43,426 nt of DNA from positions 1 through 43,426 of the forward strand of contig JAJDCU010000037.1 in the NCBI GenBank assembly GCA_029260655.1, given 5' to 3'. The notes beneath the pieces were generated by a model. That model saw only the letters and a program-made list of their open reading frames with translations, did not search any database and had not been told where the DNA came from. This DNA comes from Phycisphaeraceae bacterium. GTDB lineage: Bacteria; Planctomycetota; Phycisphaerae; Phycisphaerales; Phycisphaeraceae. Made by a program: the position numbers and the translations under genes. Positions 6,104 to 11,001 of the stretch are shown piece after piece; the stretch's first letter is position 1, and the number at the start of each line of letters is the position of its first letter.

Positions 6104-8413
6104 CTAGGCGCCGGTGTCCGGGTCCTGCGGCGACCAACCCGGGGGGCTTGATAGCACGGCGAGGTCGTCGGCCTGCTCGATTCCGAACATCTTCTGTGTC
6201 CGCTTGAGCCAGCCCCGCATCACGACCCAGCCCAGCACCGCCAGGGTCACAAGTGCGGAGAACATGATGGTACTGAATTTCAGGCTGTCGTCGCCGACCG
6301 GCTCGGACTGGCGGGTCGCCGCCCGGGTGATCTTCGCGGTGTCCTGGCGGTTGGCGGTTCGGTCCTGCGACAACTGATACCCGACGACCGCCCGGCCGAT
6401 CGATTCCAAGGCGGGCACGCATTGGTCTTTGCTGGCAGACTGATACGTCAGCTCGACGCGGCCTGGGGTGCCGGCGATATCCAGGTGGTTGCTGAGGTGC
6501 TCGGACAGCGCCGCGGTGTTGGTGAACAGCCGGACGCCGCGCTGCTCGAGTTGGGAGAGGGTTTCTTTCAGCACGGGCTCAGCCATGACGGCCTGGCGCA
6601 TCTGGCTGATCCACGCGCCGGCGCTGGGCGGGCTTTGCCCCGGGGGCAGCGTGATCTGGATCGCCATGGACGACTGCCATTTCGGGGTGGAGACCTGCCG
6701 GCCCACGAAGAAACTGAACCCCGCCAGCAGTGTCAGCGCGATCATCGTGCCGATTACCAGCGACGCGGCCTTGTGCGTTGCCCACCGCCTGATCATCTCG
6801 GACTCTGAGACCTCCAGGAACTTCTTGACCTCGACCAGCATCTGCCGTTCCTTGCCCAGCCCCGCGTACTGCGCGCTGCTGGACGCCAGCCGCTTCTCCT
6901 CCTGCTGAACCTTCTCAGAACGTTTGCTCAGTGATTCCTTGGCGCTGTGGAGCTTGTTGCGTCGGCCGGCGAGCTTTTCGCTGGCCTGCTCCAATGTCTT
7001 AGAGCTGTCGGCCAGCTGGGCTTTTTCTTCCTTGAGTTTCTCGGACTTCTTATCCACCGCCTGCTGCGCCTGCTTTAACTGCTCGCGTTCGGACACGAGT
7101 TGGTCTTTGCCCTGCTTGAGCGTCTGTTGATAGGTCGTCAGCTTCTCATCGAGCTGCGTTTCTCGCTGCTTCAGGTCGTCCTGGCTGGCGTTTAAGGCCT
7201 CGCGTTGGCTGTCCAACTCGCCGCGATTCGATTCGATCTCGCTGCGCTGTTCATCCAATTCCCTGCGTTGCTGCTCGAGCTCGGCGCCGGCGGCCTGATC
7301 GCTCTGGCTGGCCTGCTCCGTCTGCTTCACGCGCTGCGACAACGCCGTTTCGCGGGATTCGATATCCGCCTGGAGGTCGTCCAGAAGCGACTTCTGCTCG
7401 CTGAATTCATTTTGCTGTTGATCCAGCTCCCCCTGCCTTTGATCGAGCTGCGTCTGGAACTGGTCAAGCGATTCCTGTTTCTGCTTGAGCTCCTCTTGCC
7501 GCTCATGGATCTGCTGCTCGGCTAGCTTCAGCTTCTCGGTCAGGTCCCCGGCTTGGGCGGCGGCGTCCGCGCTGTGGCCCAGTTCTTCGCGCTGACGCTG
7601 GACCTCGGCCCGGTCGGCCTCGATGGTCTTGCGCAGCTCGTCGTTCTCCGATCGTTGCTTGGCGGCTGTCTCCAACTGAGCGCGCGCCTCTTCCAACTGA
7701 CGCTCAGCCGATTGGGCCTGCTCGCCGGCCTGGGCCTGGCTTGATTCGAGCTGTTCTTTGGTTTGATCGAAGCCGGCTTGGTGTGCTTGCAGCTCGTCGA
7801 CCTGCTGCTGGAGATGGGTCTGGCGCTGGTCCAGTTCCTGGCGGCGCTTGTCCAGGTCGGATTCGGCCTTCTCCAGCTTGGCGTGTTGGGCGTCGAGCTC
7901 TTCGCTCAGTGATTCGTTGGCCTGCTCGCGTTCCTGGACGCGGGTCCGGTCGGTTTCGAGTTGGCCTTGCGCTTCTTCCAGCTCCTGCTGCTGAGCGGTT
8001 AGCTGGCCGCGCTGGGCGTCGGCCTCTTGCTGCTGCTGCGTGGCCTGCTTCTCCCGCTGCTGGGCCTGGCTTACCAGTGCCTGGACCTCGTTGCGCTGCT
8101 CGTCGAGCAGGGCCTGGGCCTGATCGAGTTCGGCCTGACGCTGGTCAAATGACTGTTGGCGTTGGTCCAGCTCGCCGCGAGCGCTGTCCAGCTCCTGCTT
8201 CTGCTGGGCGGCTTCGTCGGCAAGGCTCTGGGCCTGTTCGCGTTGGGAGTTGACGTCTTGAGCCTGTTGGCGGACCTGCTCGAGCTGCTGGTCGCTTTCC
8301 TTTTGCCAGTTCTTGAGTTGGCCCAGCCGGTCTTCCAGCTCGTTGAGCAGGCTTTCGACCTGGCCGGGGTCCTCGGCCTTGGGGTCGGTCGGCTGTGTAT
8401 TCTCCTGCACCAT
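6104..8413 (-). CDS. giant coiled-coil protein with Wzz-like membrane domain
   Basis: 769 residues. Residues about 15-535 are an almost unbroken Gln/Glu/Leu-rich coiled coil (repeats such as ELDQRQ and QLDQRQGELDQQQ). A transmembrane segment at about 549-571 and a second at about 715-733 enclose some 140 residues of presumed periplasmic domain. That domain has a VLKETLSQLEQRGVRLF segment followed by GTPGRVELTYQSASKDQCVPALESI, a pattern close to the Wzz/chain-length-determinant domain of polysaccharide export. A plausible role is polysaccharide chain-length control or an envelope tether with a long cytosolic rod; this is inference. No glycosyltransferase or Wza/Wzc gene is nearby. The second and third codons downstream offer no better start, and no strong Shine-Dalgarno is seen. 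Confidence 0.7.
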   Translation of the reverse strand: MVQENTQPTDPKAEDPGQVESLLNELEDRLGQLKNWQKESDQQLEQVRQQAQDVNSQREQAQSLADEAAQQKQELDSARGELDQRQQSFDQRQAELDQAQALLDEQRNEVQALVSQAQQREKQATQQQQEADAQRGQLTAQQQELEEAQGQLETDRTRVQEREQANESLSEELDAQHAKLEKAESDLDKRRQELDQRQTHLQQQVDELQAHQAGFDQTKEQLESSQAQAGEQAQSAERQLEEARAQLETAAKQRSENDELRKTIEADRAEVQRQREELGHSADAAAQAGDLTEKLKLAEQQIHERQEELKQKQESLDQFQTQLDQRQGELDQQQNEFSEQKSLLDDLQADIESRETALSQRVKQTEQASQSDQAAGAELEQQRRELDEQRSEIESNRGELDSQREALNASQDDLKQRETQLDEKLTTYQQTLKQGKDQLVSEREQLKQAQQAVDKKSEKLKEEKAQLADSSKTLEQASEKLAGRRNKLHSAKESLSKRSEKVQQEEKRLASSSAQYAGLGKERQMLVEVKKFLEVSESEMIRRWATHKAASLVIGTMIALTLLAGFSFFVGRQVSTPKWQSSMAIQITLPPGQSPPSAGAWISQMRQAVMAEPVLKETLSQLEQRGVRLFTNTAALSEHLSNHLDIAGTPGRVELTYQSASKDQCVPALESIGRAVVGYQLSQDRTANRQDTAKITRAATRQSEPVGDDSLKFSTIMFSALVTLAVLGWVVMRGWLKRTQKMFGIEQADDLAVLSSPPGWSPQDPDTGA

Positions 8414-8572
8414 TGATAAGCACCTTGAGCGCGGGGATCGCTACCTTTATCGGATAGTGCCCCGGTCGACCTGAGCGCCGAACGGGTAGAATCGGCACAA
8501 GCCGCACGACGGTCCCCGGCAGAACCGGCACCGGCGGTACGAACGGACGGATAACCTCTTTGGGACCTAGAC

Positions 8573-9541
8573 ATGCACCAGCCAGCCAGCACATGCGGAT
8601 CGGTCGGAGACGGCCAGACCGCCTCGTCGGCGGAGTGCGTTACGGGCCCGGCTGTCGGGGGCCCGGTTGCCGAGCTTCATGGCGTGGGTTTTGGGTATGA
8701 GCCGGGTACCCCCGTGGTGACGGATGTCACGGCCAAGCTGCGCCCCGGGCGGGTCTGTGCGTTGATCGGGCCCAACGCGGCGGGCAAGTCGACGCTATTG
8801 AAACTGATGCTGGGCCAGCTCGATCCCTGGCAGGGCTCAGCGGAGTTGGCGGGCCGACCTGTCGCGGCGCTTGCGCCAAGGCATCGGGCGGCGCTGGCCA
8901 GTTATGTCCCGCAGAAGGGGGGCATCAGTTTCGCGTTCACGGTCAGGCAGGTCGTAACGATGGGTCGGTTCGCGTCGGGCGACCACGATGAGGCCGTCGA
9001 CCGGGCGCTTTCGATGTGTGACCTGGCCGGGCTGCAACACCGCGTCTTTGCACACCTGTCCGGCGGTCAGCAGCAGCGCGTCCTTCTGGCCCGTGCGGTT
9101 GCCCAGTCCACCGGGGGCGGGCGGGTGATGTTCCTGGATGAGCCGGCCTCGGGGATGGACCTTTGGCACGTCCACCAGACGATGCGCCTGCTACGCAGAT
9201 TGGCTCACGGCGATCCGCCCGGGCCCGCCTGTGCCCCGGCCTGCGCGCCCTTAGGGGTGCTGGTGGTCCTGCACGACGTGAACCTGGCGGCGCGCTACGC
9301 CGACGACGTTTGGCTGATGGATGACGGGCGGTTGGTTGCGGCCGGCCCCTGGCAGGAGGTTTTGCTCCCTAAGCTGCTTGAGCCGGTGTATCGGGTGGGC
9401 TTCAAGACGATCCAGGCCCCGGCCGGTGGCCCCACGGGCGATGGGCCGCAACGCTGCGCATCACCGCCGCGCCCTGAAAACGGGACAGATCATCCGCCGC
9501 GCCCCGTGTTCTGGATCGACCCACCCGATACAATAGATTGA
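8573..9541 (+). CDS. ABC transporter ATP-binding protein (iron-siderophore/cobalamin type)
   Basis: 322 residues with a complete ABC ATPase: Walker A GPNAAGKST (66-74), Q-loop Gln114, signature LSGGQQQR (162-169), Walker B VMFLDE (185-190) and H-loop His234. The sequence style (YVPQKGGISFAFTVRQVVTMGR, then VLHDVNLAARYADDVWLMDDGR) fits the FecE/BtuD/HmuV group that energises FecCD-type permeases. A Gly/Pro/Cys-rich insert (about 213-227) precedes the H-loop strand, and both termini carry extra low-complexity residues. No permease or binding-protein gene is in the window, so its partner must be elsewhere. Divergent from the coiled-coil gene across 159 bp. Confidence 0.85.
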   Translation: MHQPASTCGSVGDGQTASSAECVTGPAVGGPVAELHGVGFGYEPGTPVVTDVTAKLRPGRVCALIGPNAAGKSTLLKLMLGQLDPWQGSAELAGRPVAALAPRHRAALASYVPQKGGISFAFTVRQVVTMGRFASGDHDEAVDRALSMCDLAGLQHRVFAHLSGGQQQRVLLARAVAQSTGGGRVMFLDEPASGMDLWHVHQTMRLLRRLAHGDPPGPACAPACAPLGVLVVLHDVNLAARYADDVWLMDDGRLVAAGPWQEVLLPKLLEPVYRVGFKTIQAPAGGPTGDGPQRCASPPRPENGTDHPPRPVFWIDPPDTID

Positions 9542-9593
9542 CGCCCGATCCCGCTCACGCCGACCGACCCGGCCAAGCCCATGCGAGGCAACC

Positions 9594-10367
9594 ATGCTAG
9601 ACAACATCACGACCACACTGGCCGCGGATTTGACCGACTTCATCTGGATCGGCATCGTCGTGGTGAGCATCGTCGGGTCGATGATCGGCAACGTGCTTAA
9701 GCAGCAGAAGGAAAAGCGCGACCGCGAGGTGGGCGGCTCCGAGGAGCTTGAGGAGATGGCGGCGCGTCGGCGCGAGCAGTTGCGCCAGGCGACACGCCAG
9801 CGGGGCCAGCCCCAGGCCCAAGCGCCACAGACGGGGGGTACGGCTTCGGGTGAGCCCGGCAACCTGACCATGGCCGAGCGCATCGCCCGCGCCCGCGCCA
9901 AGGCGCAGTACCAGCAGCGTGGCCAATCGTCAGGCCGATCCGCCGAGCAGGCCCAGGCGCAGGCACAAGCCCAGTTGCAGCGGCGTCAGCGCATGGCCCA
10001 AGCCCAGCAACAGCAACAGGCCCAGCAACAAGCCCGGCAGCGTGCTCAGCAGCAGGCCCGGCTACGCGCCCAACAACAGGCCCAGCAACGCGCCCGCCAG
10101 CAGCGCGCACAGGCCCACGCACAGGTGCAGGCGAAGGCCCGTCAGCAAGGCACCCTCCTTCACGACCAACTCCCCAGCCAGCAGCAGCCCGCCTCACAGC
10201 CGACACGCACAGTCCGTTCGCCCAGACGCGTAAAACCCCGGCCCGCACCCGTCCCCGCCTCCGCGATCATCGGCCGGGACACGGGCAGGGTGCTGTCGCA
10301 CGCCAACCTCCGCCAAGCGGTCATCCTCAAGGAAATCCTGGATAAACCCCTGGCGCTGAGGCAGTAG
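9594..10367 (+). CDS. membrane-anchored Gln/Arg-rich low-complexity protein
   Basis: 257 residues. One transmembrane segment near the start (IWIGIVVVSIVGSMIGNVL, about residues 17-35) is followed by a charged segment (KQQKEKRDREVGGSEELEEMAARRREQL). A long Gln/Ala/Arg-rich tract, about residues 80-190, has repeats such as QAQAQAQ and QQQAQQQ. The last 50 residues are more complex (RDTGRVLSHANLRQAVILKEILDKPLAL), resembling a short conserved C-terminal helix found in small planctomycete proteins. GAGG lies shortly before the ATG. A TACAAT box at 9529-9534 could be its promoter. Not recognised by family; the tract may be disordered or nucleic-acid-binding. Confidence 0.6.
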   Translation: MLDNITTTLAADLTDFIWIGIVVVSIVGSMIGNVLKQQKEKRDREVGGSEELEEMAARRREQLRQATRQRGQPQAQAPQTGGTASGEPGNLTMAERIARARAKAQYQQRGQSSGRSAEQAQAQAQAQLQRRQRMAQAQQQQQAQQQARQRAQQQARLRAQQQAQQRARQQRAQAHAQVQAKARQQGTLLHDQLPSQQQPASQPTRTVRSPRRVKPRPAPVPASAIIGRDTGRVLSHANLRQAVILKEILDKPLALRQ

Positions 10368-10394
10368 CTGTTAGCGGTTAGCCATTAGCCTTAA
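10365..10394 (+). repeat. TTAGC-type intergenic repeat, left copy
   Basis: A run of TTAGC/GTTAGC units that begins with the TAG stop codon of the Gln/Arg-rich gene. An inverted relative lies at 11646-11675, and 18 of 21 bases match in the best-aligned block. Both copies sit at the 3' end of a gene. Confidence 0.5.
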
Positions 10395-10419
10395 GGCCCT
10401 GATCCCCGGTCCCCTCGCC

Positions 10420-11001
10420 ATGGACGAACACCTGGACCGCATCGAGATTGTTGTTGGCGACATCACTTTGCTGCGCGTCGAAGCTGTCGTGAATGCCGCC
10501 AACGAATCGCTGTTAGGCGGCGGCGGGGTGGACGGTGCGATCCACCGCGCCGCGGGGCCCGGCCTGCTCGAACACTGCAGGACCCTGGGCGGCTGCCCGA
10601 CCGGGCTGGCGAAAATTACCCCCGCATTCGATCTGGAAGAGCAAGGCGTCAAACACATCATCCACGCCGTCGGCCCGGTCTGGCGCGGCGATGATTCGCA
10701 GAAGCTGGGCTACACCCTGGAAGACACTTTCCTCGCCTCCTGCTACCACCAATCCCTGGGCCTGGCGGCCGAGCACAGCTGTAAGACCGTCGCCTTCCCC
10801 AATATCTCCACAGGGGTCTACCGATTCCCCAAACCACGCGCCGCCAAGATCGCCTTCGGCCACATCCTCGGCTTCCTCGACAAATATGACATGATTGAGA
10901 ATGTCATCCTCTGCTGTTTCAGTGACGCCGATGCGCAGGTCATACAAGACGTGATCGACACCCGCGAGGACTGGATGTTCAACCGCAAACGCATGGGGTG
11001 A
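10420..11001 (+). CDS. macrodomain protein (O-acetyl-ADP-ribose deacetylase-like)
   Basis: 193 residues, essentially a single macrodomain. Typical motifs are visible: GDIT (14-17), VVNAANESLLGGGGVDGAIH (27-46) that contacts ADP-ribose, GLAKIT, IIHAVGP, and NISTGVYRFP near 128-137. Relatives such as YmdB hydrolyse O-acetyl-ADP-ribose or remove ADP-ribose from proteins. The catalytic Asn/Asp region and the diphosphate-binding GIF-type loop (STGVY) look intact. The C-terminal tail (about 20 residues) is basic. No partner ADP-ribosyltransferase is adjacent. Confidence 0.92.
   Translation: MDEHLDRIEIVVGDITLLRVEAVVNAANESLLGGGGVDGAIHRAAGPGLLEHCRTLGGCPTGLAKITPAFDLEEQGVKHIIHAVGPVWRGDDSQKLGYTLEDTFLASCYHQSLGLAAEHSCKTVAFPNISTGVYRFPKPRAAKIAFGHILGFLDKYDMIENVILCCFSDADAQVIQDVIDTREDWMFNRKRMG

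Follow-up and report, generated by a model that had tools for sequence, protein, structure and literature searches.

In the known polysaccharide co-polymerases (PCPs; Wzz, Wzc and KpsE) the ring is periplasmic and the cytosolic ends are short. Here we describe a gene predicted to place a membrane domain of this type at the foot of a cytosolic rod of some 480 helical residues. The gene lies in the 43,426-nucleotide stretch of DNA that we analysed (hereafter the window; contig JAJDCU010000037.1 of a Phycisphaeraceae bacterium, GenBank assembly GCA_029260655.1), where an earlier note, made from the letters alone, had proposed either an unusual polysaccharide co-polymerase or a spacer between membrane and cytoplasmic structures. 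Our study shows that the gene belongs to a conserved Phycisphaerales family. From the N-terminus onwards, its members have a tip helix, a rod of heptads that varies in length, a helix next to the membrane (the juxtamembrane helix) and a minimal membrane domain with a predicted PCP fold. TM1 and TM2 denote its two transmembrane segments. The gene and its parts are:

6104..8413 (-), whole gene, 769 amino acids plus stop (ATG start, open reading frame call)
8264..8368 (-), tip ("head") motif GQVxxLLxELExRLxQLKxWQ, residues 16-50 (N-terminal motif and head profile)
6908..8365 (-), Q/E-rich heptad rod, predicted helix 17-277 and 282-502 (periodicity, AF2)
6767..6883 (-), juxtamembrane helix, residues 511-549, KERQMLVEVKKFLEVSESEMIRRWATHK (family conservation)
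6704..6760 (-), TM1, residues 552-570 (hydropathy; helix in the model)
6278..6703 (-), predicted periplasmic alpha/beta PCP base domain, residues 571-712 (model, Foldseek and VIA)
6221..6277 (-), TM2, residues 713-731, preceded by the conserved Pro705 (hydropathy, alignment)
6107..6220 (-), short basic cytosolic C-terminal tail, residues 732-769 (conserved Arg/Lys after TM2)

The membrane domain

A PCP fold for the membrane part is supported by structure prediction and by profile comparison. The model of the last 261 residues, made with two sequences, has a pTM of 0.51 and a mean pLDDT of 70.7, with 73-90 across the bulk of the periplasmic core. It runs from helix-TM1 through a strand, three helices, two strands, one helix and one further strand to TM2. 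Every one of the 50 PDB matches listed by Foldseek is KpsE or Wzc (E-values 6.8e-7 to 1.9e-4), the best value belonging to the PCP-3 protein KpsE. By VIA, the E. coli PCP-2a protein Wzc, a bacterial tyrosine (BY) kinase, aligns end to end with the rod family over TM1, periplasmic base and TM2 (Z 12.2-13.2), and KpsE scores 10.5-10.9. The PCP-1 proteins WzzB, WzzE and FepE have the two TMs and the periplasmic base fold in common with the rod family at Z 7-8 (FepE and WzzE), a range in which unrelated alpha/beta rows also occur; we read those for HMG-CoA reductase, eIF2 and Cas6 (Z ~7-8) as alpha/beta arrangements of a common kind.

The sequence profiles likewise return PCPs. When the family profile was compared with the PDB, the top eight sequences were all Wzc (best E 1.5e-4), the only protein found at E<0.01. 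The segment that the earlier note had picked out for its GxxxELTYQS-type pattern aligns with ..GVLSLTYTGEDREQIRDILNSIARNY of Wzc, and the two families have a strand-turn-helix motif, GxLxLxYxxxDxxxxxxxLxxxxRxY, in common. The cut-off of the Pfam Wzz model (PF02706, 25.5 bits) is not reached by the C-terminal domain of the window protein alone, which scores 13.6 bits; three family members are among the Wzz matches of the genome search, also below the cut-off (21.5-22.8 bits, E 1.3e-4 to 8.2e-4), and 13 of 50 relatives match at E<=0.1, the best at 5e-5. A profile search of genomes of the class found, besides orthologues, many frames of 700-800 amino acids matching columns 35-180, and all five of the non-orthologous matches that were checked carry Wzz and an AAA_31 kinase-type domain, both over cut-off. 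With hhalign, the family alignment gave only a weak match to three E. coli PCPs (probability 17.6, E 0.0014), the target alignment being three distant rows. Of 53 family frames, 50 make up this family alignment (A1); L055 (the same gene as L001), L033 (a split match) and L042 (nearly identical to L081) were left out. The Wzz-like two-helix membrane domain of the earlier note is supported by fold, by profile and by orthologues that match Pfam Wzz below its cut-off.

The family nevertheless differs from each of the known systems. Wzc ends in a kinase and its periplasmic part is larger; the rod family lacks both and carries a long rod before TM1. KpsE is described as forming an octameric cage around the KpsMT exporter (PMC11041684, in part); the extension of the rod family, by comparison, is cytosolic. 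In WzzB only about 15 residues precede an amphipathic helix, alpha0, that leads into TM1; the rod family shares a helix of this kind. The periplasmic part of classical PCPs includes an elongated helical domain with a coiled coil, and their TM2 follows a stretch rich in proline (PMC7809406, in part, for WzzB and for classical PCPs). The rod family, in contrast, has about 510 residues before the juxtamembrane helix and lacks the periplasmic arm: the longest periplasmic helix of the 261-residue model covers residues 154-178 (25 residues), and about 140 residues lie between the TMs (142 in the window protein, by hydropathy). Separately, genome G018, in which the rod family was not found, has a rod-less PCP-like frame of 263 amino acids (L159:8244-9032(+)).

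Rod, tip and juxtamembrane helix

The huge Gln/Glu-rich rod that the earlier note had placed before TM1 is there: residues 19-530 are 20% Gln and 15% Glu and contain no Pro and no Cys. The spectrum of their hydrophobicity has its maximum at a period of exactly 3.50 residues, with a power of 1.35 compared to 0.20 +/- 0.07 for shuffled sequences, and none of 1000 shuffles reaches it. What had been called a 530-residue coiled coil is hence a real heptad rod, but one of about 482 predicted helical residues to which the juxtamembrane helix (511-549) is added. The two helices of the rod come from a full-length AF2 model (two sequences) whose mean pLDDT of 61.7 makes it a low-confidence one. Within residues 19-277, one position of the heptad core is 92% hydrophobic and the other is weak, at 27%. 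Matches of the full protein to SMC, Rad50 and HmpF fell far below cut-off and were taken as coiled-coil bias.

We examined 78 frames of the family, two of which are cut by a contig end. With the first Met of each frame taken as the start, all 76 untruncated members have an N-terminal region of 234-862 amino acids (median 537.5). The heptad signal has a z of at least 3 in 68 of the 78 (100 shuffles each). What is conserved is the presence of a rod, and not its length or sequence. With the rod kept by orthologues and a structural match to the PCP fold in hand, neither of the outcomes that the earlier note had named as fatal to its idea, a rod missing from orthologues and a domain without the Wzz fold, was found.

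Conservation is concentrated at the ends of the rod. The tip motif, VxxLLxDLExRLxxLKxWQ across the family, is present in 56 of the 78 N-termini, 30 of which form the head alignment A6. A head-only profile of 44 positions gives 64 matches, spread over 58 of the 101 genomes; classed by contig and frame length, 55 of these lie in the frame of a canonical member, two are split-looking N-terminal pieces (G001, G021), five belong to hairpin-only paralogues and two to soluble proteins. Between the window protein and four orthologues of its genus, identity is 89-91% in the head and 85-87% in the juxtamembrane helix, but falls to 60-72% in the periplasmic domain and to 38-39% over residues 51-420 of the rod, which indicates that the rod ends are more constrained than the periplasmic domain. 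Among the 50 aligned members, Glu537 of the juxtamembrane helix is invariant, Pro705 before TM2 is kept in 44 (other prolines there are variable), and two positions of TM2 are Gly in 29 and 26, respectively. In the PCP superfamily, the segment before TM2 is proline-rich and TM2 itself is glycine-rich. Arg/Lys residues are conserved on both predicted cytosolic flanks of the TMs, and those following TM2 agree with the predicted topology in which the N- and C-termini are both inside.

Distribution of the family

Using the C-terminal 242 residues as query, we found matches in 62 of 101 relatives (the genome of the window included), while a profile of the juxtamembrane helix and TM1 matched 66. The union of these, compiled by hand together with the full-length-type matches of the class search, which sampled part of the 101, puts the family in 74 relatives, counting genome G066, where the copy is split over two frames. 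Phylum-wide, the juxtamembrane profile matched 10 of 343 genomes, all of them in the same order, and the whole membrane domain as query added two members (L134, L135) in family f9 of the same class. The gene is so far almost confined to one planctomycete order, the Phycisphaerales. We found no description of the family in the titles and abstract starts of open-access PMC articles, a search whose scope excludes subscription journals and preprints.

In the split copy of G066 (L166:6542-8582(-)), the rod-TM1 and periplasmic parts of a canonical member are in different frames, through either a broken gene or an assembly error. Two family members stand in tandem in genome G071 (L039, near 7201-10801(-)), and two other f6 genomes, G059 and G075, also have two copies. 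We discounted a weak juxtamembrane match in G077 (L168), which belongs to an unrelated protein.

Variants without the periplasmic domain

Two of the 101 genomes encode paralogues that combine rod, juxtamembrane motif and a TM hairpin, four in G037 and three in G016. Where both ends of the family profile match these proteins, the match jumps from about column 57 to about column 190, and by hydropathy six of the seven have two TMs 15-25 residues apart, with one TM called in L167. The tip also occurs on soluble proteins. One, in G021, is a 221-residue tip-rod frame with neither TM nor basic tail (L177:6535-7197(+)). The other, in G037, lies directly upstream of a hairpin-only paralogue and has 294 amino acids, with the tip motif, a short rod and a histone-like tail (L156:3009-3890(+)) whose last 114 residues include 43 Lys/Arg, 2 Asp and no Glu.

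Genomic neighbourhood and glycan genes

In most loci of family f1, the rod gene and a gene for an ABC ATPase (a cluster present in 24 loci) point away from each other, with mfd-like, macro-domain, L13 and S9 genes nearby. These conserved neighbours are of housekeeping type. The best NCBIfam model for the ATPase of the window (8573-9541(+)) is that of a haem ABC importer ATPase, at 219.5 of 261 bits; this adjacent ATPase, found in many loci, thus resembles the haem-importer type, below cut-off, and not KpsT. In other families the rod gene is divergent from an MqnE-like gene (cluster in 12 loci; the one member checked scores 423.5 vs 434.55 bits). The window further contains, at 9594-10367(+), a gene for a 257-residue protein with one N-terminal hydrophobic segment, a Gln/Ala/Arg-rich tail and no Pfam match, which lies near the rod gene in five loci. 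No tRNA was found in the window.

The earlier note had suggested looking for polysaccharide genes as neighbours. In the loci examined none was recognised beside the rod gene among the shared neighbour clusters, the unclustered neighbours being only partly annotated. Elsewhere, the genome of the window has four Wzy_C and two Poly_export genes, and Poly_export is found in 97 of the 101 relatives. PF02706 has no match in the window's genome. However, the rod protein is not its only PCP, an idea that we rejected because an XrtA-type chain-length protein adjoins Poly_export on contig C59; it scores 133 bits against a cut-off of 278.85 and is missed by Pfam Wzz. The C59 locus (L162:8894-12537(+)) has this XrtA/PEP-CTERM-type protein, an ATPase and a tyrosine autokinase beside Poly_export. 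Genomes with the rod family and genomes with Wzz (PF02706) show no association among the 101 relatives (Fisher p=1.0; genome lists compiled by hand, that of the rod family drawing in part on the class search, which sampled part of the 101).

An FtsZ/tubulin-family gene was found in none of the 101 relatives, whereas 13 of 14 control genomes were positive. This negative result is context and not evidence of function.

Discussion

We propose that the rod protein is a cytoplasmic scaffold or tether anchored in the envelope, with a minimal PCP ring as its usual foot, and we give this proposal about an even chance. It is suggested by a tip and juxtamembrane helix that are conserved, a rod that is free in length, a periplasmic domain that can be dropped and a context other than glycan synthesis. 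The fold searches, the soluble tip-rods and the lack of association with Wzz-carrying genomes also count in its favour. The PCP-fold base would sit in the inner membrane with both ends of the protein in the cytosol, and would probably be a multi-copy ring, like other PCPs. Such a ring would send a sheaf of rods about 70 nm (some 480 helical residues x 0.15 nm) into the cytoplasm and show their tips to a partner. Its main job may be to keep a cytoplasmic item, or further rods of the family, at a set distance from the envelope, while its periplasmic face could link the ring to the envelope glycan machinery or merely hold it in place. Of the two options proposed in the earlier note, a spacer would fit better than an unusual co-polymerase.

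A similar architecture is known from PodJ of Caulobacter, which has a cytoplasmic N-terminal region rich in coiled coils, a TM and a periplasmic C-terminus, and recruits partners via its coils (PMC10127582, in part). The rod family matches PodJ in architecture only, PodJ having a disordered region and a different C-terminal part, and we regard it as a functional analogue without claiming homology. TipN may be a further analogue.

Several observations weigh against a scaffold or tether. The second core position of the rod is weakly hydrophobic, and the heptad signal is weak in 10 of the 78 members. Most genomes retain the periplasmic domain and its conserved proline, which argues that the domain does something. 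The hairpin-only paralogues are limited to two possibly related genomes, both of which also have a canonical copy, and the negative result on polysaccharide genes rests on shared clusters, many other neighbours being unannotated.

The retained proline before TM2 would also fit a true polysaccharide co-polymerase, whose ring acts on a Wzy-type polymerase or an ABC exporter while the rod positions or regulates it from the cytosol. This explanation, the main rival and possible if somewhat unlikely, is consistent with the alignment of the whole TM1-periplasm-TM2 unit with Wzc and KpsE and with the Wzy_C and Poly_export genes of the window's genome and the near-ubiquity of Poly_export among the relatives. 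It has to contend with the lack of recognised polysaccharide genes adjoining the rod gene, with a Poly_export on C59 that stands beside an XrtA-type chain-length protein and a kinase of its own, with the missing long periplasmic arm, with a distribution unassociated with PF02706 proteins and with the existence of paralogues without the periplasmic domain. Chain-length control may thus be a function of the rod protein, if a less likely one.

A sensor, in which the PCP-fold domain reads the state of the periplasmic glycan or cell wall and signals via the rod to a cytosolic partner bound to the tip, would explain why tip, juxtamembrane helix and periplasmic domain are conserved and the rod between them poorly so. 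We consider it quite improbable, as no signalling domain was found in the rod protein, a rod length that varies several-fold fits a rigid signalling coil badly, and the hairpin-only paralogues have nothing to sense with. Lastly, a chance resemblance, with an ordinary SMC-like coiled-coil protein joined to an unrelated membrane hairpin, could appeal to the low Pfam Wzz score of the window protein and the weak profile-profile result, and is very hard to credit given that independent lines (Wzz matches of relatives, the PDB profile comparison, the fold searches and the five Wzz-kinases) all return PCPs.

The proposal of an envelope-anchored scaffold or tether can be extended, speculatively and with a good deal of doubt, to a 'tip-rod' scaffold system that the Phycisphaerales, with no FtsZ/tubulin gene found in the 101 genomes, would have as their own. 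A shared tip, carried on a PCP-fold ring, on a bare hairpin (G016, G037) or on soluble ends, one of them histone-like, might connect the envelope and glycan export with the nucleoid or with other bodies in the cytoplasm through tip-tip or tip-partner binding, the fold of a sugar-chain regulator thereby serving as a cytoskeletal anchor.

The occurrence, family-wide, of a PCP fold with a large, tipped cytosolic rod suggests that this fold can serve as an anchor for something inside the cell. Division and envelope organisation in planctomycetes that lack FtsZ are still unsolved problems (PMC5147048, in part), for which the family offers a specific, usually single-copy and taggable candidate in most Phycisphaerales.
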